Virus record (IMG/VR): IMGVR_UViG_3300036770_002724
Coordinates: 62,001 to 126,000 of that record
Length of the DNA: 64,000 bases
Reading direction: 5' to 3' (one strand)
DNA from: a virus
Part shown: one piece after another, positions 10,170 to 61,718 of the stretch
How positions within the stretch are numbered: position 1 is the first letter of the stretch
Layout: each line of letters starts with the position of its first letter
The notes under the pieces: generated by a model
Told to the model about the DNA's origin: nothing
Databases searched by the model: none
The model's input: the letters and a program-made list of their open reading frames with translations, nothing else
Program-made: the position numbers and the translations under genes

Positions 10170-12608
10170 ATGCACAGCAAGTTCGCACTCCACAACCTCA
10201 AGGGAAACCCCACGACCTACTACTTGGTCGAGTCCGAAGCGGTCTCTGCGCCGACGACTCCGGGACCGAAAGCCAGCCACCATATCGCGATCCTCGATGT
10301 GTCGGGATCCATGTACGGGGACATGGAGGCTGTTCGTTCGACCGTCGAGAAGGTCTTTACTGCACAGGAGTTCAATGACCCCTCTCAGTTGATCTCCCTC
10401 ATCACCTATTCGTCGAACCCTGATTGTCGGGTTCACTTCAGCCGCATCACCGTGGCAGATGTTCTTGCTCCAGGCAGCCTTCCGCTACGGGAGATCCGCT
10501 CGCTTCATACGCGCGGTTTGACCTGCATCTCCCAGGCACTTGAGGCTGCCGAGGAGTTGATCCACGACGACGAGATCACCGCGATTTCCCTCCACTCGGA
10601 TGGCTACGCGAACGATCCGTCGCCCTTCGCGGAAAGCCAGCGGTTGCTCCAGGCCGCACGGGAGATTGCGGCTCACCCTAACGTCTTCTGCAACACGGTC
10701 GCGTATCGCTCTTCTTGCGACTTCGCTCTCCTCACGGCGGTAGCGAACCAGCTTTCCGGCAAGTGTGTTCAGGCAACCTCCGCCAAAGGCGTCTACGATG
10801 CCCTGGTCGATTCCCAGAGACTTCTTGGTGGTCGCGTAGCTCCCACGGTCGAGGTGGGGCTGGGCTCTGCTGACTTCGTCACGTTCGTCTCAAAGAAGGC
10901 TCGCAAGATCCTTGGAGGCACCGCATCCCTGATGGTCCGGGGGCTTTCGGCAGATGACGACATGACGGCTTACAGGTATCGGCGCGTTGATGAGGCGGCT
11001 TACGCGGCCTCCCCCGCTTCCGAGAACGATCTGGATGCTCTCTTGGCTTTTTGCCGGTCGAACATCGCCCTGGGCAACCTCAATCCGGCCAAGTACGCCA
11101 TGATCACCACTCGGATCCCTGACCTAATCGGGCCGCACGTCCGAGCGATGGTCAACGCGGAGGTAGCCTCTTGGGCGCTTGCCGTCGAGACCCTGCTGTT
11201 CCGCGACCTCACGACTCCCGTTCACCAGAGCCCTTCCTATGGGCTCTCGGGGGCATCCACGAACACCCTGGCTGTCTTGGATGTGCTTGCGAAGCACAAG
11301 GGCTCGTTGCGGGTGCATATGCCCACCCTGCTGGACGGTTACAAGCGGCGAGGGGTGAAGAGGATTCCGGGCACCCGTGAGTCGGATGGTTCCGTCACGA
11401 AGCCGGACTTCTCGACCAAGCTCCGGTCCAAGGAGGAGTGGGTTCCGGTCTCCGGGGTCGAGATCAACCGAGACACGGCCACCGTCAATCTGCGTCTGGT
11501 GCAGGATGTTGACCTCGTGGACTCCGCTGGGACGGTCATCCCAGAGGTGGCAGGCATCAAGCTCGATCTCAAGGACTTCAAGAACTACACGCTCGTGTCC
11601 GACGGACAGGTCAACGTCGGGCGTCTACAGGTGAGGACATCCGATAAGCGGTGCTTCTCGGATCTCAAGTCTCTGGGGGTCGCTCAAGGGGACTTCGACC
11701 CCAATCAGGGGTCCGAGATCCATCTTGCGGATCTCCCGTTGGTCGATTACGACCGTCCGGTCGGCAGCATCACGGCACAGGGGTATGACCGGCTTCTGAA
11801 GCTCACGGTCCTTCAGAAGATCCTGAACGGCATTTCCGGTGAGGCGTCTGAGGTGTTCACGTCTGAGCAGATCGTGGAGTTGAAGCGGCACTACCTCACT
11901 CCCGCTCTGTACTTCAGCCCTCCCACGACCACGGCCCATGCGGACTTGAAGGCTGCGCTGGCGGCAGGCGAGGTCGATGTTCGGACCTCGTACAAGGTCA
12001 AGATGGGCATCCCGTCTATCCGCTCTGTCGCAGAGCTTTACTCGGGCAACGCTTATCTCCAGCGGAGGTTCACGTTCACGGGGGAGGACGGTAAGGCTGC
12101 TGAGAAGCCTCTCCTTTCGATGTTTTCCCAGAAGGGGGTCTGGGGTATCAAGGCGCTTTCTTCTCGTACCAAGCTGGATGAGATCGACGCCTTGACGTAT
12201 CCGATCTACGCCGAGGTCTTCGGTCTCGACTCGACGGGTGCCCTCAAAGACCTTCTTTCTTCTATCGGTGTTGATTCGACGTCCGTGCTGGATGCCTTGG
12301 CTCATCGGGTCACGGCACCAGACAAGGTGGGCGAGGTTCTTCTCGGGGTCTCTCGGCAAGTGGACGCCGCTATCGAAGCGATCTACTCCGAAGACATCAT
12401 CCCGCTGGCCTTCTACGTTGGGGCCACGGGGCTTGTTCCAGATGCTCTTGGGGCCAAGGCCATGACGCCGGATGACTTCGTTTCGAGTCATCCGGCGGTG
12501 AAGCTCTCCAAGGATGAGAAGGAGGCGATGTTCTATGCTCTTCCTGGGGGTCTTGTCCTGAGCGTTTTCACTTCGGCGGAGCACTTCACGACGGATACGG
12601 CAAAGTGA
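10170..12608 (+). CDS. von Willebrand factor A (MIDAS) domain protein, 812 aa
   Basis: Residues 35-230 form a vWA domain with a complete metal-ion-dependent adhesion site: DVSGSM at 42-47, a Thr in TRGLTCISQAL, and Asp in HSDGY. The remaining 580 residues have no motif that I recognise; they are soluble and include alternating alpha and beta stretches. vWA proteins commonly bind partner proteins through a divalent metal. No MoxR-type ATPase, the usual partner, is visible in the window. The gene has its own upstream region, divergent from the RNA ligase, and ends at a strong terminator. Confidence 0.8.
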   Translation: MHSKFALHNLKGNPTTYYLVESEAVSAPTTPGPKASHHIAILDVSGSMYGDMEAVRSTVEKVFTAQEFNDPSQLISLITYSSNPDCRVHFSRITVADVLAPGSLPLREIRSLHTRGLTCISQALEAAEELIHDDEITAISLHSDGYANDPSPFAESQRLLQAAREIAAHPNVFCNTVAYRSSCDFALLTAVANQLSGKCVQATSAKGVYDALVDSQRLLGGRVAPTVEVGLGSADFVTFVSKKARKILGGTASLMVRGLSADDDMTAYRYRRVDEAAYAASPASENDLDALLAFCRSNIALGNLNPAKYAMITTRIPDLIGPHVRAMVNAEVASWALAVETLLFRDLTTPVHQSPSYGLSGASTNTLAVLDVLAKHKGSLRVHMPTLLDGYKRRGVKRIPGTRESDGSVTKPDFSTKLRSKEEWVPVSGVEINRDTATVNLRLVQDVDLVDSAGTVIPEVAGIKLDLKDFKNYTLVSDGQVNVGRLQVRTSDKRCFSDLKSLGVAQGDFDPNQGSEIHLADLPLVDYDRPVGSITAQGYDRLLKLTVLQKILNGISGEASEVFTSEQIVELKRHYLTPALYFSPPTTTAHADLKAALAAGEVDVRTSYKVKMGIPSIRSVAELYSGNAYLQRRFTFTGEDGKAAEKPLLSMFSQKGVWGIKALSSRTKLDEIDALTYPIYAEVFGLDSTGALKDLLSSIGVDSTSVLDALAHRVTAPDKVGEVLLGVSRQVDAAIEAIYSEDIIPLAFYVGATGLVPDALGAKAMTPDDFVSSHPAVKLSKDEKEAMFYALPGGLVLSVFTSAEHFTTDTAK

Positions 12609-15118: not shown

Positions 15119-15397
15119 ATGACAAGGCTTCAACTCGTCAAGCTGGCAAGGCAGAGGGGCATCAAGGGGGCGTCGAAGATGCGAGTCGACGAACTCAAGT
15201 ACCATCTGTCCGATAACGGGGTGTTGCCCCAGATCCCCGAAGAGGATACGGTAGTGGAGGACGAAACGCCTCGTCCTCCTGAGATCACGATTCGACTGAA
15301 CACTCCGATGTTCCGGCACCGTCCTGTCCTGATGGCGTTCGCGGAGCTTGTCATCGCCCTCAAGGAAGCCGAGGAACTGGGCATCATCGAGACATGA
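15119..15397 (+). CDS. SAP/Rho-N-like small protein
   Basis: A 92-residue protein whose first 32 residues (LQLVKLARQRGIKGASKMRVDELKYHL) match the helix-extended-helix pattern of SAP or Rho N-terminal domains, which bind nucleic acid. The rest holds an acidic linker and a hydrophobic helix (LMAFAELVIALKEAEELG). Its stop overlaps the start of the deaminase gene (ATGA), implying co-expression. TATGTA ends 5 bp before the ATG, so a start-proximal promoter is possible, though GAGG is also present. Confidence 0.65.
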   Translation: MTRLQLVKLARQRGIKGASKMRVDELKYHLSDNGVLPQIPEEDTVVEDETPRPPEITIRLNTPMFRHRPVLMAFAELVIALKEAEELGIIET

Positions 15398-16065
15398 AGG
15401 ACAAGCACATTCGGGTTCGGATTGAGCAGTGCCTTCTGCTGGCCAAGGCGTCGAATTGCCCTCGCAGGTCTTTCGGTGCCCTTCTGCTCGACCCCGAGCG
15501 TAACGTCGTTCTCGCGGACGGCTACAACGGTGCTCCCCGTGGAGGAGGGTCTCTCTGCGGGGGGCACCGTTGTCTTCGCGACGGGCTCGCTCCCGATCAG
15601 GTCGAGATCCGTTCTTTCGGAGACCAATGCGCCGTCCACATTCGTTCGGGACAATCTTGGGAGTCTGCCCTCTATCCAGACGGGCGGGTCTTGGGGTCTC
15701 CCGATCAAGCAGATGCCTTGAAGGCCCGGCTCCTCAAAGAAAACCTCCCCGTCGCTTCGGGGACGCGCGTCGAGATCGGGTGCGTCCACGCCGAAATGAA
15801 CGTCATCTGTAACGCGGCGGCGGGCGGGGTAAAGTCAGCAGGGGCTTGGTTGATCGTGACCGGCGAGCCCTGCCTCCAATGCGCCAAGCTCGTCCATCAC
15901 GCGGGAATCGTCCACGTCATCGTGGTCGCGGGCGGGTACGCCGGGGCGAATGGACTGGAGTATCTGCGGGAGCACAAGGTTCGAGTGACCGAGGTGGACG
16001 GTCCGCAGGATCCCCGGCTTGGGAAGGCGGTTCAGTCTGGTATGTGTACGTCCTCCAGTCTTTAG
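15394..16065 (+). CDS. Deoxycytidylate (dCMP) deaminase
   Basis: A 223-residue cytidine-deaminase-fold enzyme. The zinc and catalytic motif HAEMN begins at residue 132 and PCLQC spans 159-163, giving His132, Glu134, Cys160 and Cys163. The N-terminal half has the NGAPRG loop and the CGGHRC segment with a long insert before HAE, as in ComEB/T4 cd-type dCMP deaminases. It would convert dCMP to dUMP for thymidylate synthesis. The last 15 or so residues run past the fold and overlap the next gene by 22 bp. Confidence 0.88.
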   Translation: MKDKHIRVRIEQCLLLAKASNCPRRSFGALLLDPERNVVLADGYNGAPRGGGSLCGGHRCLRDGLAPDQVEIRSFGDQCAVHIRSGQSWESALYPDGRVLGSPDQADALKARLLKENLPVASGTRVEIGCVHAEMNVICNAAAGGVKSAGAWLIVTGEPCLQCAKLVHHAGIVHVIVVAGGYAGANGLEYLREHKVRVTEVDGPQDPRLGKAVQSGMCTSSSL

Positions 16066-17603: not shown

Positions 17604-19097
17604 ATGCCCGAGGGATGGGATCCGACATCAACCGACCGACCGTTGCCTCCGCAGAACGGTCAGGCGGTCAGTCCTTTCATCACGGGCATCTTGGACATCC
17701 GCTGGGATGACCCCGCCCTTCTCGCGGGAAACAGCATCTACACGGTCGTAGGCGTCAACGTCTATCGCTCTGACGCCTCCGACCGTGGACCCTACTTTCG
17801 GCTCAACGCCCTTCCCGTCGGCGGCGGGTTCTACCGCGACCTCACCGACATGGTTCCGGTTCACCGGGAGGTCATCCCCTGGGATACCGGCTGGATCTTC
17901 CGAGGTGACGCCCCTAACCTTCGGCGGTGGACTCTGCGGACCTCGCAGCCTATCGTGAAGGCGGTCTTTCAACCGCCCTACAGCCGGGCGACGCCTGCGA
18001 ACTCGCCTTCTGACGTTACCGTTTACATCAACGGCATCCTCGTTCCGGTCGAGTCGGTTTTCGGTCCCACGGGAGAAGTGACCCTCGTCAATCTGGGGGA
18101 CATCGACGTTGCTCGCCAGAAGATCGACAACCCGGTTTTGCCGACGGAGACGTCCACGGTCGAGGTTTCTTACTTCGCCGCCCAGAACATCGTTCGGTCG
18201 GGCCTCGAACTCCACAGCTACTACCGGCTGACGACGGTCGTGATCGATCCGACGACTCCTTCCGGATACCGGGAGTCGGGTCTAGGCTACTGTCCGCCGA
18301 TCATCAGCAAGCAAACGGAAGCCCTCGATTACATCTGGCGCGAGGCGGTTCGTCGGAACCAGTGGATCGTTCAGCAGGGCGGGGAGCGGGCCAAGATTTT
18401 CATTCGCAGAACCGCTGGGATCCCTTGTACGCACGGCATGGATCCCCGGACCATTGAGTTTGGGGGTCAGCCTTCGATTCGGTGTCAGATTTGCTTCGGC
18501 ACGGGTTTCGTCGGGGGCTATGACGGGCCTTTCGACGTTCTTATCGCGCCGGATGACGCCGAGCGGAAGATCACCCAGACGATGACGGGTCGGCGCAGGG
18601 AGCACACGCAGGACGTCTGGATAGGGCCGAGCCCCGTCGTCACGATGAGGGACTTCATCGTGAAGCAAACGAACGAGCGGTACTCCATTGGGCCTGTCAG
18701 GAGGCCCACCAATCGAGGCGTCTACCTTCAGCAGCACTTTATGATCGGCTCTCTGGACGAGGCGGACATCCGTTACGCGGTCCCCATCGACGGAGTCGAG
18801 AAGTACGCCTGGCCCCAGAACCGCTGGTCTATCGTCCAGACGCCGACCTCTTTCGTGGACGGCTACCCGCCGACCCCCCAGCAGCGCCAGATCAACGGTC
18901 TCACGCCGACTGCCGATCCGTGGCCCCTTGGACCTACGGCAGAGGCTCCGATGGGAACCTCGAACGGTTCCTCTCCGCCCGAGCTTGAGCAGAGAGGCCG
19001 AACGACGGTCTGGTCCAACATTTCTCGCGCTTTCTGGCCTATACTTCTGCTTCCTAGTATGTGGGAGACATTCTGTGCAGTATCTTGGCCCCTGTGA
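17604..19097 (+). CDS. Virion structural protein with embedded zinc-binding segment
   Basis: A 497-residue protein. The N-terminal 200 residues contain beta modules typical of tail proteins (VNVYRSDASDRGPYFRLN; VTVYINGILVPVESVF; a closing VEVSYFAAQN). At about 275-310 the segment CTHGMD ... CQICFGTGFVGGYDG looks like a zinc-binding loop, as in some phage neck or tail proteins. The last 23 residues are hydrophobic (FWPILLLPSMWETFCAVSW) and overlap the start of an endonuclease gene. The C-terminus has therefore probably been changed by that insertion. Confidence 0.7.
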   Translation: MPEGWDPTSTDRPLPPQNGQAVSPFITGILDIRWDDPALLAGNSIYTVVGVNVYRSDASDRGPYFRLNALPVGGGFYRDLTDMVPVHREVIPWDTGWIFRGDAPNLRRWTLRTSQPIVKAVFQPPYSRATPANSPSDVTVYINGILVPVESVFGPTGEVTLVNLGDIDVARQKIDNPVLPTETSTVEVSYFAAQNIVRSGLELHSYYRLTTVVIDPTTPSGYRESGLGYCPPIISKQTEALDYIWREAVRRNQWIVQQGGERAKIFIRRTAGIPCTHGMDPRTIEFGGQPSIRCQICFGTGFVGGYDGPFDVLIAPDDAERKITQTMTGRRREHTQDVWIGPSPVVTMRDFIVKQTNERYSIGPVRRPTNRGVYLQQHFMIGSLDEADIRYAVPIDGVEKYAWPQNRWSIVQTPTSFVDGYPPTPQQRQINGLTPTADPWPLGPTAEAPMGTSNGSSPPELEQRGRTTVWSNISRAFWPILLLPSMWETFCAVSWPL

Positions 19098-20106
19098 AGT
19101 TTGCGGGAAACTGAACCGAAACTATAGGGCACTGGCAGCACATCTTCGTCACACGTCCGATCAAGCACATCGGGATTTGCTCTTCAAATGGCATCATTGG
19201 CGTTCCGAGTACAGGGCTACTCTTCGTTGTCGAAAGTGTGGTCAGCTTTGGACCACGAAACACAAAGCTGACCACGAAAACAAGCGGTGCCCAAGATGTG
19301 AGGAACTGAGGCGTGTTCTTGGGAAACGTCGATATGAACAGCTAAAGTTTGATATGGTCTCCGACACCCGCCATGTGATGACTGATTCTGGAACGAAGGC
19401 GGGTTGGGACGGGCTGGAAAAACGACATACCGTTTGGGTTATGGGGGATGACCTAACTTGGAAGGTTTTCGAGGCTTTTGAGGAGGGGCTTCCAGTCAAT
19501 AAGGTAATTCATAGCCTGGGCATTACATATCAGGTCTATGCTGACATTTTGATGGCTATTTTAGGTGCGGACGTGTATCAAGCCGCCCACAAAAGACGTA
19601 AGAGATTGGTGGGGTCGGTAAACGTGCAGCGCGCCCATGCTAAGTGGGCTTCCATGTCCTCAGACGACAAGGCTGCGTATTATCAGAAGCATTTCGGTAA
19701 AGGTTCAGCCTTAGAGGCAGGTTTTGCTGGTGCTTTACGTCGTTCTGGGATTACCGATCTATTGCTGAACGTGTGGCAATCTTTGAGTGTGGGGGGTCGT
19801 GTGTGTCCCCGTGAAGCGGACATCAAGATTTCCCTCGAAGACGGTCGAAAAGCGGTCATATTGTGTGACGGTGAGGCTTTTCACGGCCCCAGATTCATTT
19901 ACGGGTCACCAACTGCCCGCATCGCAGAAGACGTTGCAACCGCAGAGGCTTACTTCGATGTAGGCTATTCTGTGTTTCGATATTCAGAAACGGAGATAAA
20001 GTCTGGTTGGGCTTTAGATCATCTATTGGGTGCTCTAATAAGGCTTAGGTCAGGTACGTCGAAGATTTACCGCACTTGGTGTCCTTCGGAAGAACGGGCT
20101 TCTTAG
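19075..20106 (+). CDS. Free-standing homing endonuclease, zinc-finger plus PD-(D/E)xK-like domain
   Basis: A 343-residue protein starting at GTG, 8 bp after GGGAG. Residues 7-25 (CEVCGK ... H ... H) and about 51-75 (CRKCG ... CPRC) look like zinc-binding modules; a helix-turn-helix-like part (GLPVNKVIHSLGITYQVYADIL) follows. The C-terminus has ADIKISLEDGRKAVILCDGE and a helix ending in GYSVFRYSE, like Vsr/PD-(D/E)xK nucleases. It is AT-richer than the flanking genes, overlaps the upstream structural gene, and leaves the downstream gene intact, which is typical of a mobile endonuclease gene. Confidence 0.75.
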   Translation: MQYLGPCEVCGKLNRNYRALAAHLRHTSDQAHRDLLFKWHHWRSEYRATLRCRKCGQLWTTKHKADHENKRCPRCEELRRVLGKRRYEQLKFDMVSDTRHVMTDSGTKAGWDGLEKRHTVWVMGDDLTWKVFEAFEEGLPVNKVIHSLGITYQVYADILMAILGADVYQAAHKRRKRLVGSVNVQRAHAKWASMSSDDKAAYYQKHFGKGSALEAGFAGALRRSGITDLLLNVWQSLSVGGRVCPREADIKISLEDGRKAVILCDGEAFHGPRFIYGSPTARIAEDVATAEAYFDVGYSVFRYSETEIKSGWALDHLLGALIRLRSGTSKIYRTWCPSEERAS

Positions 20107-20108
20107 TT

Positions 20109-20714
20109 ATGGCGAAGATCCAGATGCGGAGGGTTCGAGGGAAGCCTTGGTCCAAGACCAAGGAGATTCCCTTGACCCCTTCGACGTTGCGGCGTCTCGG
20201 TTATGCCATCGTCAAAGAGTTGAAACGGGAAGCAGCCAAGGACTTCGCCAAACGGGGGTGGTCAGGCGAGGATCCGATGGGAGGCAAGCCGATCTGGGAG
20301 TCCTTCCACTTCAGCGTGAGGGGTCAAGATGTGATCGTTTACTCGACCTTCTATGGGATGAAGGAACTTGCGAAGGGGGACATCCCGGCTCGGAAGATGA
20401 CATGGCTCACGCAGAAGGCCAAAGAGGAGCACCCCTCCCAGTATGCACTCACCGACCGCGAAAAAGAACTCGGTATGAGGGTCACGGGCAAGCCGAGCAA
20501 AGGTGAGCGTCTGCCTCTGATCGTTCCGGTGGAGTCGAACGGGTCCGTTGTTTTTCGGGTCGCGCCGCTTCGTTTCGCAGATGCTTGGGTCCATCCTGGG
20601 ATTGCCAAGTTCACGTTCTTTGGGCGGGCGATACGAAAGGGTCGGGAAGCCTGCATGGAGATCATCGCGGAGGAGATCGCGAAAGCCCTTGCCGAAGGGG
20701 ATCCGACCCGATGA
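20109..20714 (+). CDS. Neck or tail-completion-type protein
   Basis: A 201-residue, basic protein. The segment FRVAPLRFADAWVHPGIAKFTFFGRAIRKGRE resembles the conserved WxHPG region of HK97 gp10-like and virion-morphogenesis proteins, which join head and tail or end the tail tube. The N-terminus includes two amphipathic helices. Its stop overlaps the next start (ATGA). The family call is from this one segment. Confidence 0.6.
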   Translation: MAKIQMRRVRGKPWSKTKEIPLTPSTLRRLGYAIVKELKREAAKDFAKRGWSGEDPMGGKPIWESFHFSVRGQDVIVYSTFYGMKELAKGDIPARKMTWLTQKAKEEHPSQYALTDREKELGMRVTGKPSKGERLPLIVPVESNGSVVFRVAPLRFADAWVHPGIAKFTFFGRAIRKGREACMEIIAEEIAKALAEGDPTR

Positions 20715-21313
20715 GAGAAGCGGAGATCACCTGCTTGTGTTCGCCTGGGGTCCAGATTGCGGACCTGGGACTCTCTTTGAAACGTGGGGATGTCATTTAC
20801 CTCTCCGAAGACAAGATCCGTCGGTCGCAGCACTTGGAGACGGTTCGGCGCGCGAACGGGGTGTCCGTCCGATGGGTCGAACGCTGTCGAGAAAAGCGCG
20901 AACCTAAGATCGAAGCTCCCTTCATGGCTCCTGTCTCATCATCCCCTTCGCCTGTTCTGGGGGTTCCCCTTGCACCCATTCCGGAGACTTCCTCTGGGTT
21001 GCCCTTGGATATGGTCGAACTGGAAGCCCTCCTCAAGCGGGTCGTCAGTCCTTTGATCGAACAGGTGTCCGCCTTGCGGCAAGAGATCGCCCAGCGACCT
21101 TCCGTGGTCATGGCCCGTGAGGCGGTTCCTGTTTCTTCACGACCCTCGATTCCCGGGTCGGGTACGGTGGCTTCTGAAGCCCCTTTGTTCATCCCTAGCG
21201 ATCTGGTGAATTCGGGGCTCAAAGCGGACATCGCCTTCGTCGAGAAGGAGCAGTCGGTAGGGGGGCTGGACTCTGCTACTGAGGCTCTGAAGGCGCTCAA
21301 GAAAAAACGGTGA
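20711..21313 (+). CDS. Structural-module protein with Pro-rich linker, 200 aa
   Basis: The N-terminal 70 residues form a small domain (GLSLKRGDVIYLSEDKI) and are followed by a Pro/Ser-rich linker (about 75-115), a coiled coil (DMVELEALLKRVVSPLIEQVSALRQEI) and a flexible tail ending in KALKKKR. The start domain is like tail-region proteins that begin with a ligand or ring contact, but no family is certain. It is co-transcribed with both neighbours. Confidence 0.6.
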   Translation: MREAEITCLCSPGVQIADLGLSLKRGDVIYLSEDKIRRSQHLETVRRANGVSVRWVERCREKREPKIEAPFMAPVSSSPSPVLGVPLAPIPETSSGLPLDMVELEALLKRVVSPLIEQVSALRQEIAQRPSVVMAREAVPVSSRPSIPGSGTVASEAPLFIPSDLVNSGLKADIAFVEKEQSVGGLDSATEALKALKKKR

Positions 21314-21317
21314 AATC

Positions 21318-22325
21318 ATGTCGGAGAAGATCATCAAGGGGCGCGGCCTCGACATCGGGACGATGAACATCGTAGCGGCTCGTCGGACTTCCAAGGGGGT
21401 CACGACGTCCCGTATGCGGGACGTGTTCCTCGACCTCCCGGCAAGCGCCAAGAAGATGCTCCGTCTCGCGAAGACGAGCTTCGTGGAGCGGGGAGACGAG
21501 GTCTATATCCTGGGGGATGCCGCTCTGGAGACGGCCAACATCTTTGGTCGCGAGCCCCGTCGCCCGCTCTCCGCCGGTCTGGTTTCGGCAGGGGAGACTG
21601 AGGCTCTCGAAGTCCTCGCTCTCCTCATCAAGCACGTCTTGGGCGAGCCTTCGTCGCCGGGAGAGGCTTGCTACTTCTCGGTCCCGGCGGCGCCTATCGA
21701 TCAGCCGGATCGGGACATCGTTTACCATCGAGGGGTCTTTGACCGCATCGTTCGGGACTGCGGTTATCGCCCTGTCGCCTCGAACGAGGCTATGGGGATC
21801 ATCTTCAGCGAGTGCGCCGAAGACGGTTTCTCTGGAGTGGCGCTCTCCTTCGGAAGCGGGATGACGAACTGTGCCCTCGCGATCAACACCATCGAAGGTC
21901 TTTCCTTCAGCGTCGCGAGGGGCGGCGATTGGATCGACGCCGGAGCGGCCAACTCGGTCGGTTCGACCAAGGCCCGTATTTGTGCGATCAAGGAAGCGGG
22001 GGTGGACCTCAACGCCCCCAAGGGTCGAGATCAGGAGGCTATCGCCTTCTACTACAAGAACTTGATTGAGTACGCGCTCGACCAGATCGCGCTCCGCTTC
22101 AAGGCCATGCAAGGCCAGTTTGCCCTCCCTCGGCCTATCCCGATGGTCATCTCAGGGGGAACGAGCATGGCGGGCGGGTTCATGGAGTTCTTCACCAAGG
22201 TTTTTGAGGAGAAGCAAAAGCGGTTTCCGATCCAGGTGTCGGACATCCGGGCTGCCAAGGATCCGCTGAACGCTGTGGCTTATGGGATGCTTGTTCAGGC
22301 CATGCAAGATGACGATGATGCCTGA
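21318..22325 (+). CDS. Actin-like ATPase (ParM/MreB superfamily)
   Basis: A 335-residue protein with the three signature regions of the actin/Hsp70 ATPase fold: phosphate 1 GLDIGTMN (9-16), phosphate 2 VALSFGSGMTNCAL (about 173-186) and the adenosine motif VISGGTSMAGGFMEFF (about 276-291). Such proteins polymerise with ATP into filaments that move DNA or position structures. Here it lies inside the tail gene run, 4 bp after one structural gene and 17 bp before the next, without a ParR-like adaptor or obvious centromere repeats beside it. A role in assembly or positioning is possible; a scaffold or chaperone-like ATPase is the alternative. Confidence 0.85.
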   Translation: MSEKIIKGRGLDIGTMNIVAARRTSKGVTTSRMRDVFLDLPASAKKMLRLAKTSFVERGDEVYILGDAALETANIFGREPRRPLSAGLVSAGETEALEVLALLIKHVLGEPSSPGEACYFSVPAAPIDQPDRDIVYHRGVFDRIVRDCGYRPVASNEAMGIIFSECAEDGFSGVALSFGSGMTNCALAINTIEGLSFSVARGGDWIDAGAANSVGSTKARICAIKEAGVDLNAPKGRDQEAIAFYYKNLIEYALDQIALRFKAMQGQFALPRPIPMVISGGTSMAGGFMEFFTKVFEEKQKRFPIQVSDIRAAKDPLNAVAYGMLVQAMQDDDDA

Positions 22326-29472: not shown

Positions 29473-29940
29473 TCAAGCGGCAGCGGCGAGTCCGTCAAGC
29501 TGCTTGAGGATCTGCACCTTCCGCTCATTCGAGGGCTTCACGCCCGAGGGGAAGTAGCTGTTCACGGTCTCAGCGTCCACACCGAGGTCCAGAGCCCGCT
29601 TGCAAATCTCCTCCTTCGAGGGGAGCGCCACCCGGCCCTTGTCCGAGACGGTGAGCGTGAAGCCCGCGAGGGTGCGAGTCTCACCCGACGGGGCCTCGGC
29701 CTTGTCGGTGGCCTCCTCGACCTTGGCCTCGGCCTTGGGCTTCCGCTTCACCACGACCTTCTCGGCCTTCGGAGCCTTGGGCGCCTTCGGAGCCTTCTCG
29801 GCCTTGGGCGCCTCGACGGTCTCGGTGGTCGCGGCGGGCTTCGCCTTCAGCGACTCGATCTCGTTGAGCGCCGCCTGAGCGGCGTTCGCGAGCGCGAGCG
29901 ACTGGTGGTACACGGTCTTGAGGTGCATTTCGAGCGACAT
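29473..29940 (-). CDS. Histone H1-like Ala/Lys/Pro-rich protein
   Basis: A 155-residue protein. Residues 1-30 are an Ala-rich helix, residues 35-90 are low-complexity with KAPKAPKAPKAEKVVVKRKPKAEAKVEE, and residues 90-155 are a small folded domain (GRVALPSKEEICKRALDLGVDAETVNSYF). The middle resembles histone H1-like tails of bacterial Hc1/AlgP-type DNA-binding proteins. It lies on the opposite strand between the sheath and tube genes. Whether it binds DNA, host nucleoid or a virion part is not shown. Confidence 0.65.
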   Translation of the reverse strand: MSLEMHLKTVYHQSLALANAAQAALNEIESLKAKPAATTETVEAPKAEKAPKAPKAPKAEKVVVKRKPKAEAKVEEATDKAEAPSGETRTLAGFTLTVSDKGRVALPSKEEICKRALDLGVDAETVNSYFPSGVKPSNERKVQILKQLDGLAAAA

Positions 29941-57803: not shown

Positions 57804-60800
57804 ATGAAGACCGCCGTTTTCTTTGTCGCCACGACGTACCGGCCCACGCTTCTTCGACAATCCTTGAAGCGGCTCACGAGGCAACGGGGCGTCCCTTCCG
57901 ATTGGAGGATCGAGGTCCATGTCGCTGGCGAGCCCGGAGATCCAGGAAAGGGGGTCGTATCGAATCACCCAGGGACTTTCTACCACGATGTCGGTAGCAG
58001 GTCGGTCACGGACAAGCTCAACTCGCTTCTGGTAGCCACCAAAAGCGATCTGGTGATGCTCGCGGACGATGACGACATCCAGTCATGGGATCGAGCGGCA
58101 GAAGCTATCAAAGCCTACGAGAACGGAGCGGAGTGGTCCTGTTCGGGGACGTGTCTCTACTACGATCTTCACCACGATCTGTTGACCCGGTGGACCGGGG
58201 TGTCCGCCGAAGGGCTCATCGGGACGATGGCTTCTTTCGCGACCCCCTTGCTCCAGGCGGTTCGCGGATGGCCCTCGGTGTCTCGCGGCAAGGACGGTCG
58301 GTTGGTAGCCCGGATACGGTCGCTCCGGCGTCCTGTTCGGTTCGCGGATTTGACGGTGGCTCTAGGCAACAAGACGATCTGCCTCCAACACGATAAGAAT
58401 CTTTGGAACCGCCCCCTTGTCCCTCAAGGGGCAACGGATCGTCGAGGTCGTCATGCTATCCTGGGCTTGGGGGGAATCGCGAGCAACGTCGCCCTTCTGG
58501 GGGAGGACACCGTAAGTCTCTTGACTGAAACGGCGGGAGAACTCAGGTCCAGAAAAGCCGAAAGCTCTTCCCTCCCGCCGCCTTCTCCATCCCAGCCTCC
58601 CCCTCCTATTCCGGCGAGGATTTCTGCCTATCTACCGAAGGCTCCTGCTCCGTTCCAGGCTCCGGCTCCTCCCTTGTCACCCGCTGTTCTGGAACGACCC
58701 CCGCGACCCGCACACCCGAAAGAAAGCCTTGGAACCGTTTGCGACGTACACGTCGCCATAACGACCTACAATCGTCCGGGTCCGCTTGCGGATCTTCTGA
58801 AGGACCTTGTTCGGGAGCGCGGGGATCGAAAGGTCCACGTCGTCATCTACGACGATGGAAGCGATCAGGATTACAGCGAAGTGCGCGCTTTCGCTATTTC
58901 CCAAGGGTGGTTGTTCCGTAGGTCGGATTCCAATCGGGGCAAGAAAGGCTACTACAGGACGGTGTCCGAGGCTCTGAAGGAAGCAGAGCGGAGTCAGACA
59001 GATCGCTTCCTGTTCATACAGGACGATATGCGCTTGTGTGCCGATTTCTTTAGTCGGGTCTTTGACTTGTGGGACCAGATCCAAGACCCCAAAAAAGTCT
59101 CGCTCTATCTTCTCAGGGACAGTAACAGGTCCGAGATCGGGACCGTCTGCTGGACTGGGTTTCGGTCCCGGGTCGAAGGTCCCGTCGAACGAACCCAATG
59201 GGTAGACTGCAACGCTTTCCTTTTCAACCGGGACTTCTTGGATGTCCTGGGCGCGGAGCTTCGACCCATACCGGAAAGCCGTTGGCTCAAAGGCGACGTC
59301 TTGTCCTCGGGTGTCGGCCAACAACTCAGCCTTCGTCTTCACCACGCCGGGAGGGGGCTCTACCGGAGTCTCTTGTCCTACGTCTCTCATTCCGAGGGTC
59401 CGTCTAGGATGAACCCGAAGATCCGAAAGAGGGTTCCGATGACGACAGAGTCCTTCGCAGACGAGAAAGTTGTTCAGAAGGCCCGCTACTCGGATAAAGT
59501 TACGGCCCCGGCCCTACCGGAAGCTGGACGAAAGTCGCTTCCTTCCGCCCAGACTGTCTCGGTCTTGATTGCCGCCTACAGGGCCGACAAGTGGCTGATC
59601 GAATCCGTGAATAGCGTTCTGAGCCAAGAACTTCCTCCTGGCTGGAATCTGGAAGTCCTCGTAGGGGTGGACGGTTGCCCGGAGACGCTCGCCGTCGCTC
59701 AGACTATTGAGGACAGGCGGTTTGGCGTGGTTTCCTTCCCGGTAAATAGCGGGACTTACGTCACCTTCAACTCCCTCGTTCCCTTGTCCAGAGGCTCTAT
59801 TCTTGTACGTCACGATGCGGATGACGTGATGCTTCCGACGCGCCTGCACAAGATGATCAGAGCGTTCGAGGACCCGGAGGTGGGCCGCGTAACGACGTGG
59901 GTCGCGGAAAAAAATGTATACCCTGAGCCTCTTATAGAGTCCCCCTCTAAGGGCCGCAAAATACGCGACGGAACGTGGTCTTACCGTCGAGATGTCTTTG
60001 AGAATCTTCTCGGAGGTTTCCTACCTTGGAGGTGTGCGGCAGACACGGAAATGGATCTCAGGTCTCGTTCTTTGGGGGTCAAGTCGCACATAGTGTGTGA
60101 ATACTTATATCTTCGACGTTCGCATCCCGGCCAACTCACTCAGACTGAAGAAACGGGCTACGGAAGCGCCCTTCGGAAAGACTACGCGAAGCGTATAGAC
60201 GAATTGATAATAGAATACGCGGCGAATAAGCCTAAGCCCGTCGTCCCCACCAGAGTTGAGGGGGTCAGGCTTGGGGGCTTGTTCTCCGACAAGATCACAG
60301 CCTCGATGGCTTCGATCCCCGGTCGTCGCGAAGGGCTTGAAAAGGTTGTCCGAAGCCTGCTCCCGCAGGTCGATCACCTGAACGTCTACCTGAATGAGAC
60401 CCCTTCGATTCCGGGGATTGAGTATCCGCACACCCCGGATTTCTTGAGACACCCTAAGATCACGGCGATCTGGTCACGGGATACGCCGTTCGGAGATAGA
60501 GGGGATGCCGGGAAGTTCTACTGGGCGGATGAGGTCCAGGGTTACCACGTCATCTGCGACGACGACCTCCTATACCCTTCAGACTTCGTTGAGACGTTGA
60601 TCGCGGGTGTCGAAAGGTACGGTCGAAAGGCTGCGGTCGGGTTCCACGGGGCCGTGCTTACCGAACCTTTCACCGAATACTACAGGTCGCGCCGGGTTTA
60701 CCACTTTCAGCGATCCCTCGACGCCGACGCTCCCGTTCACGTCCTCGGGTCAGGCACGCTCGCCTACCATACAAGCGCGCTCGTCTTGACGCGAGAGGAC

Positions 60801-61718
60801 TTCAGAACGGCGAACATGGCTGACATCTGGTTTGGCTTGAAAGCCCAGCGAGAAGAGGTTCTTCTAGTCTGTCTGGCCCACAAAGAAGGGTGGTTGACGG
60901 ACGATTCGTCCACAAGGACGGATTCGATCTACGCGCACTCAATCAAGAAGGCTCAGACTCAAAAGAACACGGCGGATCTACAGACGAAGGTAGTCAAAGA
61001 GTCTTGGCCTTGGACGCTCCCAGTAGACAGGAAGGGAGGGGCCGTCTGCAAATCCGATCCTTCGGTACTTGAGGTCAAAGGACCGACTCGGACTGCTAGG
61101 ATCTCGGTCGAGTCTGGAGACCATACCCACAAGTTCATCTGCGCTACAGGGACCTACTACGAGTTCGACCTTCTTCATGCCGTTCGAGACCTGAAGATAG
61201 AAGGGCTCTATGTTGACGTTGGGGCTAATACGGGGAACCATACGACGTTCTTCCGTCTGGAGTGCCCTTCGACTCGGGTGGTAGCTATCGAGCCCGACTC
61301 GGAAAACCTGGCCCATCTTTACAGGACGATCCGTCTGAACGACCTCGAAGAGTCCGTGGACGTGCGACCTGTCGCGATCCACCCGACGCTTTCTCGCGTT
61401 TCGATGGTCCAAGGTATCCCGAAAAACAAAGGGACCATGCGAATCGAAGGCGAGGGGGACATCGAGGCTCAGACCTTGGATCGTTGCCTGGAAGGTCTTG
61501 AACCCGCCTTGATCAAGATCGACGTCGAGGGCTTGCCCCTAGAAGTGCTTCGCTCTGGGAGGAGTATCGTCGAGCGTTGCCTTCCCGTGATTGTCTGCGA
61601 AGCCAATGATCACGAGGCTTCCTCGATAGACGCTTTCCTCGGTGATTTGGGGTACGAAAGAAACCCCAAGCGGTACTGCGCCACCGCGACTTGGATATGG
61701 CAGGCGAAGACCGGGTGA
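57804..61718 (+). CDS. Multi-domain glycosyltransferase-FkbM methyltransferase fusion (1304 aa)
   Basis: Four glycosyltransferase-like domains and one methyltransferase in a row. Domain 1 (1-210) has VFFVATTYRPTLLRQSL and a DDDD metal loop (LVMLADDDDIQ). A Pro-rich linker (255-305) follows. Domain 2 (312-545) has VAITTYNRPGPL, VIYDDGSDQ and FIQDDMRLC. Domain 3 (583-790) has SVLIAAYRADKW and LVRHDADDVM. Domain 4 (828-1070) has ITASMASIPGRREGL and HVICDDDLLYPSDF. Residues 1131-1304 are FkbM-type: YVDVGANTGNHTTFFR, VVAIEPDSE and LIKIDVEG. Each GT domain has a DxD-like site. The substrate (virion glycan, host glycan or modified DNA base) is unknown. Confidence 0.85.
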   Translation: MKTAVFFVATTYRPTLLRQSLKRLTRQRGVPSDWRIEVHVAGEPGDPGKGVVSNHPGTFYHDVGSRSVTDKLNSLLVATKSDLVMLADDDDIQSWDRAAEAIKAYENGAEWSCSGTCLYYDLHHDLLTRWTGVSAEGLIGTMASFATPLLQAVRGWPSVSRGKDGRLVARIRSLRRPVRFADLTVALGNKTICLQHDKNLWNRPLVPQGATDRRGRHAILGLGGIASNVALLGEDTVSLLTETAGELRSRKAESSSLPPPSPSQPPPPIPARISAYLPKAPAPFQAPAPPLSPAVLERPPRPAHPKESLGTVCDVHVAITTYNRPGPLADLLKDLVRERGDRKVHVVIYDDGSDQDYSEVRAFAISQGWLFRRSDSNRGKKGYYRTVSEALKEAERSQTDRFLFIQDDMRLCADFFSRVFDLWDQIQDPKKVSLYLLRDSNRSEIGTVCWTGFRSRVEGPVERTQWVDCNAFLFNRDFLDVLGAELRPIPESRWLKGDVLSSGVGQQLSLRLHHAGRGLYRSLLSYVSHSEGPSRMNPKIRKRVPMTTESFADEKVVQKARYSDKVTAPALPEAGRKSLPSAQTVSVLIAAYRADKWLIESVNSVLSQELPPGWNLEVLVGVDGCPETLAVAQTIEDRRFGVVSFPVNSGTYVTFNSLVPLSRGSILVRHDADDVMLPTRLHKMIRAFEDPEVGRVTTWVAEKNVYPEPLIESPSKGRKIRDGTWSYRRDVFENLLGGFLPWRCAADTEMDLRSRSLGVKSHIVCEYLYLRRSHPGQLTQTEETGYGSALRKDYAKRIDELIIEYAANKPKPVVPTRVEGVRLGGLFSDKITASMASIPGRREGLEKVVRSLLPQVDHLNVYLNETPSIPGIEYPHTPDFLRHPKITAIWSRDTPFGDRGDAGKFYWADEVQGYHVICDDDLLYPSDFVETLIAGVERYGRKAAVGFHGAVLTEPFTEYYRSRRVYHFQRSLDADAPVHVLGSGTLAYHTSALVLTREDFRTANMADIWFGLKAQREEVLLVCLAHKEGWLTDDSSTRTDSIYAHSIKKAQTQKNTADLQTKVVKESWPWTLPVDRKGGAVCKSDPSVLEVKGPTRTARISVESGDHTHKFICATGTYYEFDLLHAVRDLKIEGLYVDVGANTGNHTTFFRLECPSTRVVAIEPDSENLAHLYRTIRLNDLEESVDVRPVAIHPTLSRVSMVQGIPKNKGTMRIEGEGDIEAQTLDRCLEGLEPALIKIDVEGLPLEVLRSGRSIVERCLPVIVCEANDHEASSIDAFLGDLGYERNPKRYCATATWIWQAKTG

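Follow-up and report, generated by a model that had tools for sequence, protein, structure and literature searches.

The cytoskeletal systems known from phages are tubulin spindles (PhuZ, TubZ) and actins of the partition type. Plasmid partition by ParM/ParR relies on a two-gene layout in which an actin is paired with a small adaptor, and the related fold of MamK serves to position bacterial organelles. In the Corynebacterium prophage CGP3, an adaptor (AlpA) was found to link DNA to filaments of the actin-like protein AlpC (PMC4446434); the two are co-transcribed, AlpA attaches to repeats in the DNA, and together they function in early DNA replication. PhuZ, the tubulin of nucleus-forming jumbo phages, has been linked to capsid delivery, and particles of phage PhiPA3 were seen to cluster tails-inward in 'bouquets' by a mechanism that is unexplained (PMC9067925). 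Another virus-encoded ATPase of the actin/Hsp70 fold, closterovirus Hsp70h, has been reported to be integral to the virion and to be needed for assembly of its tail (PMC3622897). Finally, within the recently named archaeal cytoskeletal family Volactin (PF25216), dynamic polymerisation has been reported for the volactin of H. volcanii (HVO_2015) only, which polymerises and depolymerises in vivo (PMC10869688).

The window described here (a 64-kb stretch, positions 62001-126000 of a virus record of 139,036 bases that is itself probably a fragment) encodes a protein that resembles each of these systems in part. As in ParMRC and AlpC/AlpA, a gene for an actin-like protein lies beside one for a small proposed adaptor; however, neither centromere repeats nor an array resembling AlpA sites was found around the operon, and the surrounding genes are those of a virion rather than of early DNA replication. 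As with PhuZ, the protein would represent a phage-encoded cytoskeleton in very large phages, but its fold is that of actin, not tubulin; Pfam tubulin models found no match in 20 records tested, a search that a divergent PhuZ might escape. MamK is both the nearest solved fold and the best PDB profile match, yet it carries a canonical phosphate-2 aspartate where the window protein has a serine. The ATPase Hsp70h likewise serves a virion tail, but it belongs to the Hsp70 family of a plant RNA virus, and that tail is not homologous to a phage tail. The family of H. volcanii volactin matches the window protein over its full length, and haloarchaeal relatives share its motifs, including the serine; the H. 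volcanii protein is cellular, with a reported role in disk-shape formation, whereas the window volactin is phage-encoded, and the haloarchaeal loci sampled, unlike the window, have no upstream partner with an [FY]IP tail.

A literature search of partial coverage found no paper linking volactin with phages (one haloarchaeal paper names each of them once), and the main text of a survey of huge phages mentions tubulin and not actin. While the Volactin family itself is known, its phage branch, the fixed place of the gene and its partner thus appear to be undescribed, and a family named from archaea is now tied to phages.

Identity, active site and relatives of the window protein

An earlier note on this DNA had proposed that an actin-like ATPase of the ParM/MreB superfamily is encoded within a run of tail genes. 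The open reading frame is intact, with an ATG start, and its product matches Volactin in Pfam with E=1.7e-74 and 251.7 bits (cut-off 35), across residues 9-328 of the protein and positions 3-321 of the 321 in the profile. Pfam returned no other family, PHROGs and NCBIfam returned none, and the MreB models of NCBIfam and Pfam did not match the protein; nor did the MamK model NF040964, for which the relatives reach 29-41 bits against a cut-off of 400. Using an alignment of 132 phage, planctomycete, omnitroph and archaeal sequences, AlphaFold2 produced a model with a pLDDT of 94.5 and a pTM of 0.92, in favour of which a single-sequence model (pLDDT 33.6) was set aside. Comparison with solved structures by Foldseek and VIA-align placed MamK (5ljv) first, with E 5e-15, Z 28.9 and an rmsd of 2.9 across 294 residues, followed by BeeR (Z 27.4) and MreB (Z 26). 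Searches of PDB sequences matched MamK (1e-9), FtsA and MreB only when a profile was used, the single window protein yielding nothing. The product is an actin-fold protein of the Volactin family, and chance resemblance is excluded; the earlier reading was therefore right as to the fold, and the ParM/MreB assignment gives way to Volactin.

A somewhat different emphasis emerges from a viral fold library, in which the strong matches were mostly of Hsp70 type, closterovirus Hsp70h among them. These matches favour the chief rival to a filament-based function, namely that the protein is an assembly ATPase comparable to Hsp70h: a monomeric or small-oligomeric switch of the actin/Hsp70 fold that either stays in the virion or acts as a chaperone for the assembly of neck and tail or of the sheath. 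Several properties of the protein itself point the other way: by sequence it is nearest to the volactins, a family with one member reported to polymerise; its nearest solved folds (MamK, BeeR and MreB) are all filament formers; and its 335 residues include no substrate-binding domain.

The active site bears the mark of the family. Among the nucleotide-contact motifs, all three of which had been claimed by the earlier note, phosphate-1 and the adenosine motif (SGGTS) are canonical in the window protein, and phosphate-2 departs from the pattern, reading LSFGSGMTN, with S177, against VVDIGGGT in MreB. Profile alignment to MamK and MreB places E157 on the glutamate of their EEP/SEP motif and S177 on the aspartate of VVDIGGGT. 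Fifteen residues are invariant in 132/132 aligned sequences (D12, G14, T15, E157, S177, G179, G181, N184, G203, D204, D207, K225, G280, G281 and G323), and the window protein carries the family pattern D..GT / NE / SxGxGMxN / GD..D / GGT; D12 and the catalytic E157 have thus not been lost in these homologues. Because the serine is invariant among these relatives, it is a mark of the family rather than a sign of decay, and a reading of the gene as a pseudogene or inactive ATPase was rejected, since the serine is family-wide and the remaining catalytic residues are invariant. Haloarchaeal volactins (approximately 36-39% identical to the window protein) possess an equivalent serine, and since the H. 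volcanii protein is reported to be dynamic, we infer that a serine at this position does not preclude polymer dynamics.

Inteins are inserted in several phage volactins, at three positions: after N184 in L011 (where a Pfam intein domain and an HNH domain were matched), after R201 in L289, L354, L355 and L397, and after G179 in L373 (the latter two sites from the sequence by eye, on the basis of a Cys start and, in L373, an HN-Ser end). All three lie at nucleotide-binding motifs, in or just after the phosphate-2 stretch, and inteins favour such sites in important proteins. The corresponding coordinates are L011:7965-10178, L289:3559-5688, L354:7634-9757, L355:9652-11754, L373:11310-13418 and L397:9841-11925; the endonuclease of the L011 intein is of HNH type, and the longer insert in L373 is possibly of LAGLIDADG type.

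Relatives were gathered from the best 80 of 434 contigs in a viral scan, the best 80 of 108 in a second scan that started from phage LR756511 (595 kb), and the best 80 of 220 in a scan of genomes. Records with relatives reach 618 kb, and the huge-phage records tested have exactly one volactin apiece; those of the public records LR745208 (485 kb) and LR756511 are 68.6% and 30% identical to the window protein, respectively. In a quick, unrooted tree of 97 proteins, the window volactin falls in a phage clade of 30 rows (support 99), to which another group of phages (L009, L174 and the Neomarinimicrobiota-binned contigs L055 and L069) is sister; beyond these lie Planctomycetota and related bacteria, then archaea, and the LR756511-type phage clade is far removed from that of the window. 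Five contigs with phage-type volactins that were binned into bacterial or archaeal genomes (L015, L016, L017, L055 and L069) are likely mis-binned viral contigs or prophage-like. Two adjacent volactin paralogues were noted in the Omnitrophota contigs L029 (5986-7029 and 7153-8550) and L033.

The virion gene block and the upstream partner

The features of the locus are collected in Table 1. In most phage loci of the window clade, the genes follow the same order, from the 497-aa gene through the 212-aa gene, the partner, volactin, the 404-aa gene and the Zn-ribbon gene to the sheath.

Table 1. Coordinates within the window of the volactin gene, its motifs and the surrounding module
Feature	Position	Strand	Basis
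Conserved module gene, 497 aa	17604..19097	+	Synteny; one relative gave a weak PHROG match (virion structural)
Conserved module gene, 212 aa, neck/tail-completion-like by position only	20109..20714	+	Synteny
Proposed volactin adaptor, 200 aa (N-domain, variable linker, conserved C-tail)	20711..21313	+	Sequence comparison
Adaptor N-terminal domain, ~60 aa	20711..20890	+	Retained in phages without volactin
Adaptor C-terminal tail PLFIPSDLV...LDSATEALKALKKKR, proposed volactin-binding element	21182..21310	+	Tail/volactin association
Phage volactin, 335-aa actin-fold protein	21318..22325	+	PF25216, AF2 model, MamK match
Phosphate-1 motif GLDIGTMN in residues 9-17; D12, G14, T15 invariant	21342..21368	+	132-relative alignment
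E157, counterpart of the MreB/MamK catalytic Glu, invariant	21786..21788	+	Alignment and profile alignment
Phosphate-2 motif GVALSFGSGMTNCAL; S177 in place of Asp family-wide	21834..21878	+	Alignments
Adenosine motif MVISGGTSMAGGFM; G280, G281 invariant	22143..22184	+	Alignment
Conserved module gene, 404 aa	22343..23557	+	Weak PHROG major tail/virion structural matches in relatives
Zn-ribbon module protein, 148 aa	23567..24013	+	PF09723 E 5e-9; synteny
Giant tail-sheath protein, 1758 aa	24124..29400	+	PHROG 2839 E 1.6e-26, C-terminal 366 aa

When 174 loci were searched with profiles of the genes that neighbour volactin in the window, none of the cellular loci L019-L094 proved to possess any of these genes. 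Reverse searches begun from two of the neighbours recovered volactin in 58/66 and 59/73 informative loci, respectively; the two sets share contigs, and only loci with enough sequence were counted. The location among tail genes that the earlier note had described was confirmed by the tail-sheath domain (PHROG 2839) at the end of the downstream 5.3-kb frame, and relatives keep volactin at the equivalent position; the close spacing (4 bp from the upstream gene and 17 bp to the next) makes the suggested co-expression likely. Scans for promoters and terminators gave scores no higher than those of shuffled sequence.

The sheath assignment is firm, resting on PHROGs (the C-terminus gave no sequence match among solved structures), and the same sheath family was found in 13 of the 20 records examined, among them all of those belonging to the window clade. 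The 497-, 404- and 212-aa genes and the partner gave weak matches or none (the 212-aa gene, which overlaps the partner's start by 4 bp, gave none in family searches), and for that reason 'neck' is a guess from position. This fixed place between neck-like genes and a sheath also recommends an assembly ATPase. It is offset by some lineages whose volactin-bearing records lack this sheath family, and an assembly ATPase is, on the whole of the evidence, a rather unlikely account.

A tail of this kind can do without the gene, as several phages that lack it keep the module intact: the 536-kb record L276, for example, is entirely devoid of volactin. Mapped on a tree of the two neighbours, its presence and absence require six changes, at least four of which fall on well-supported branches.

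Three further observations concern the same block. More than 1300 residues precede the sheath domain, as also in relatives, whose open frames span 1600-2500 aa. Probable free-standing mobile endonuclease genes occupy differing sites in the module (window 18928-20106 and L002:9457-10983, the latter of a zinc-finger DUF4379 / DUF559 type). Upstream of the module, a gene conserved in L011 and in phage L013 (485 kb) encodes an 812-aa product (window 10170-12608) that contains a von Willebrand factor A domain.

The partner gene is closely linked to that of volactin. Of 183 loci, a total that counts redundant contigs, 165 place the start of volactin at -20 to +30 nt relative to the partner's stop, and 85 show an exact 4-bp overlap, so that by gene overlap volactin is translationally coupled to its partner. 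Partner proteins are only 18-37% identical overall, with conservation in two parts, the N-terminal domain of about 60 residues and the C-terminal tail. The best conserved part is the tail, with the motif [FY]IPS...DDAaaALkAlRKk and the consensus ePvFIPsgIV..d.ka.i.V.se.s.gg.lDDAaaALkAlRKkkk. The [FY]IP element occurs in the last 75 residues of 83/91 distinct partners adjacent to volactin (the other eight have FVP, YVP, YMP, YLP or FFP in a similar tail), as compared with 2.8% of background open reading frames of similar size and 0-2% of other module genes. The tail profile also matches the partner in L018 (6e-11), whose volactin is 45% identical.

The three distinct partners that lack an adjacent volactin (L276, L281 and L282) keep the N-terminal domain, and the tail profile scores 0/3; L276 has FVPAP, with the second half of the tail absent. 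As L276 and L281 are sisters in the tree and L282 is separate, about two loss events are implied, and the association of tail and volactin (Fisher p 0.0012 for the strict motif) rests on just these three volactin-less partners and ignores kinship. Across the sequences compared, the tail goes with volactin, as a correlation. That the N-domain is retained after loss of volactin points to an independent, plausibly structural function for this domain; that the tail disappears together with volactin suggests that volactin is the purpose of the tail. The N-domain matched no family, no PDB sequence and no DNA-binding family in the corresponding searches, and in the cellular loci sampled no tail motif was found within 5 kb, save in L018, L055 and L069, which group with phages.

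These observations bear on a second alternative, in which volactin reshapes the host cell and its linkage to tail genes is accidental. The effect of the H. volcanii protein on cell shape is in keeping with such a host-directed cytoskeleton, and the phage clade adjoins the volactins of Planctomycetota in the tree, as capture from a host would allow. A linkage maintained across diverse huge phages is, however, far too conserved for accident, and the tail motif is missing near the sampled cellular volactins (within 5 kb, phage-grouping contigs aside), which makes this account highly improbable.

A proposed role in virion handling

The earlier note had suggested that the protein could position virions as they assemble or take part in building the tail, an idea that is consistent with the data and is strengthened by the co-encoded adaptor. 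A cargo, an adaptor and an actin constitute the simplest reading that covers the fold, the place, the coupling and the tail. According to this mechanism, to which we give an even chance, an ATP-driven volactin polymer or oligomer would be tethered by the upstream protein to assembling neck or tail intermediates. Its steps would be as follows: (i) volactin, with its ATP-binding actin fold, most likely polymerises or oligomerises; (ii) the upstream protein would act as cargo adaptor, its N-domain seated on a virion neck or tail intermediate, its variable linker acting as a leash and its conserved C-tail binding volactin directly; and (iii) late in infection, volactin would assemble and turn over in an ATP-dependent manner and thereby bring together, position or orient nascent tails or virions where virions are very large, or alternatively would power an ordered step in the joining of neck and tail. 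The contact between adaptor tail and volactin is offered as a short, peptide-sized prediction.

The two-gene layout is also that of ParMR and AlpAC, and volactin might therefore be imagined to move phage DNA in the manner of ParM or AlpC, with the upstream protein as a DNA-binding adaptor; the cassette of L009, in which volactin lies between a ribonucleotide reductase and a UvsX-type recombinase, stands among replication genes and lends itself to that reading. Genome segregation or positioning is nevertheless improbable for the window: around the operon there is no iteron- or centromere-like repeat array, only isolated two-copy repeats; the adaptor matches no DNA-binding family; and in the main lineage volactin is embedded in virion genes.

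The other volactin-bearing lineages broaden the range of settings in which a cargo-adaptor-actin system might operate. In L009, L055, L069 and L174, a gene of 113-172 aa lies directly upstream and ends in an [FY]IP stretch, and volactin of the LR756511-type clade is preceded in 74/85 loci by a 76-aa gene whose product ends in ..W.IPDF..s.K(I/V).FGK. The adaptor-tail profile does not recognise the upstream genes of the L009, L055, L069, L174 and LR756511 types, and for that reason only resemblance, and not common descent, is claimed for these tails. This sheath family was not found in the L009, L174 and LR756511-type records tested; because two phage lineages thus carry volactin without it, a purely tail-assembly role is not the sole possibility. 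The portable unit may be volactin together with a small upstream partner, with the tail operon as one of its homes.

More broadly, we tentatively propose that in at least one large lineage huge phages possess a dedicated actin system for the handling of virions, in which a filament would be gripped by an adaptor seated on the neck or tail, and possibly that two further phage lineages have such a system with different adaptors; this reading falls somewhat short of an even chance. If it is true, it would describe a prokaryotic actin whose cargo is a virus particle, as distinct from DNA, organelles or the machinery of the cell wall. An actin within the virion operon of genomes of up to approximately 600 kb would bear on how the largest phages organise the assembly of their particles, and the clustering of particles in phage bouquets exemplifies the question that it would address.

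Elsewhere in the window, three other genes were noted: an open reading frame (15394-16065) with a zinc motif, HAE..PCLQC, resembling that of cytidine/deoxycytidylate deaminases by eye; a Lys/Ala/Pro-rich frame on the minus strand (29473-29940) with 9- and 18-bp repeats and a composition like that of histone tails; and a 1304-aa protein (57804-61718) that combines two glycosyltransferase-2 stretches with an FkbM-type methyltransferase domain.
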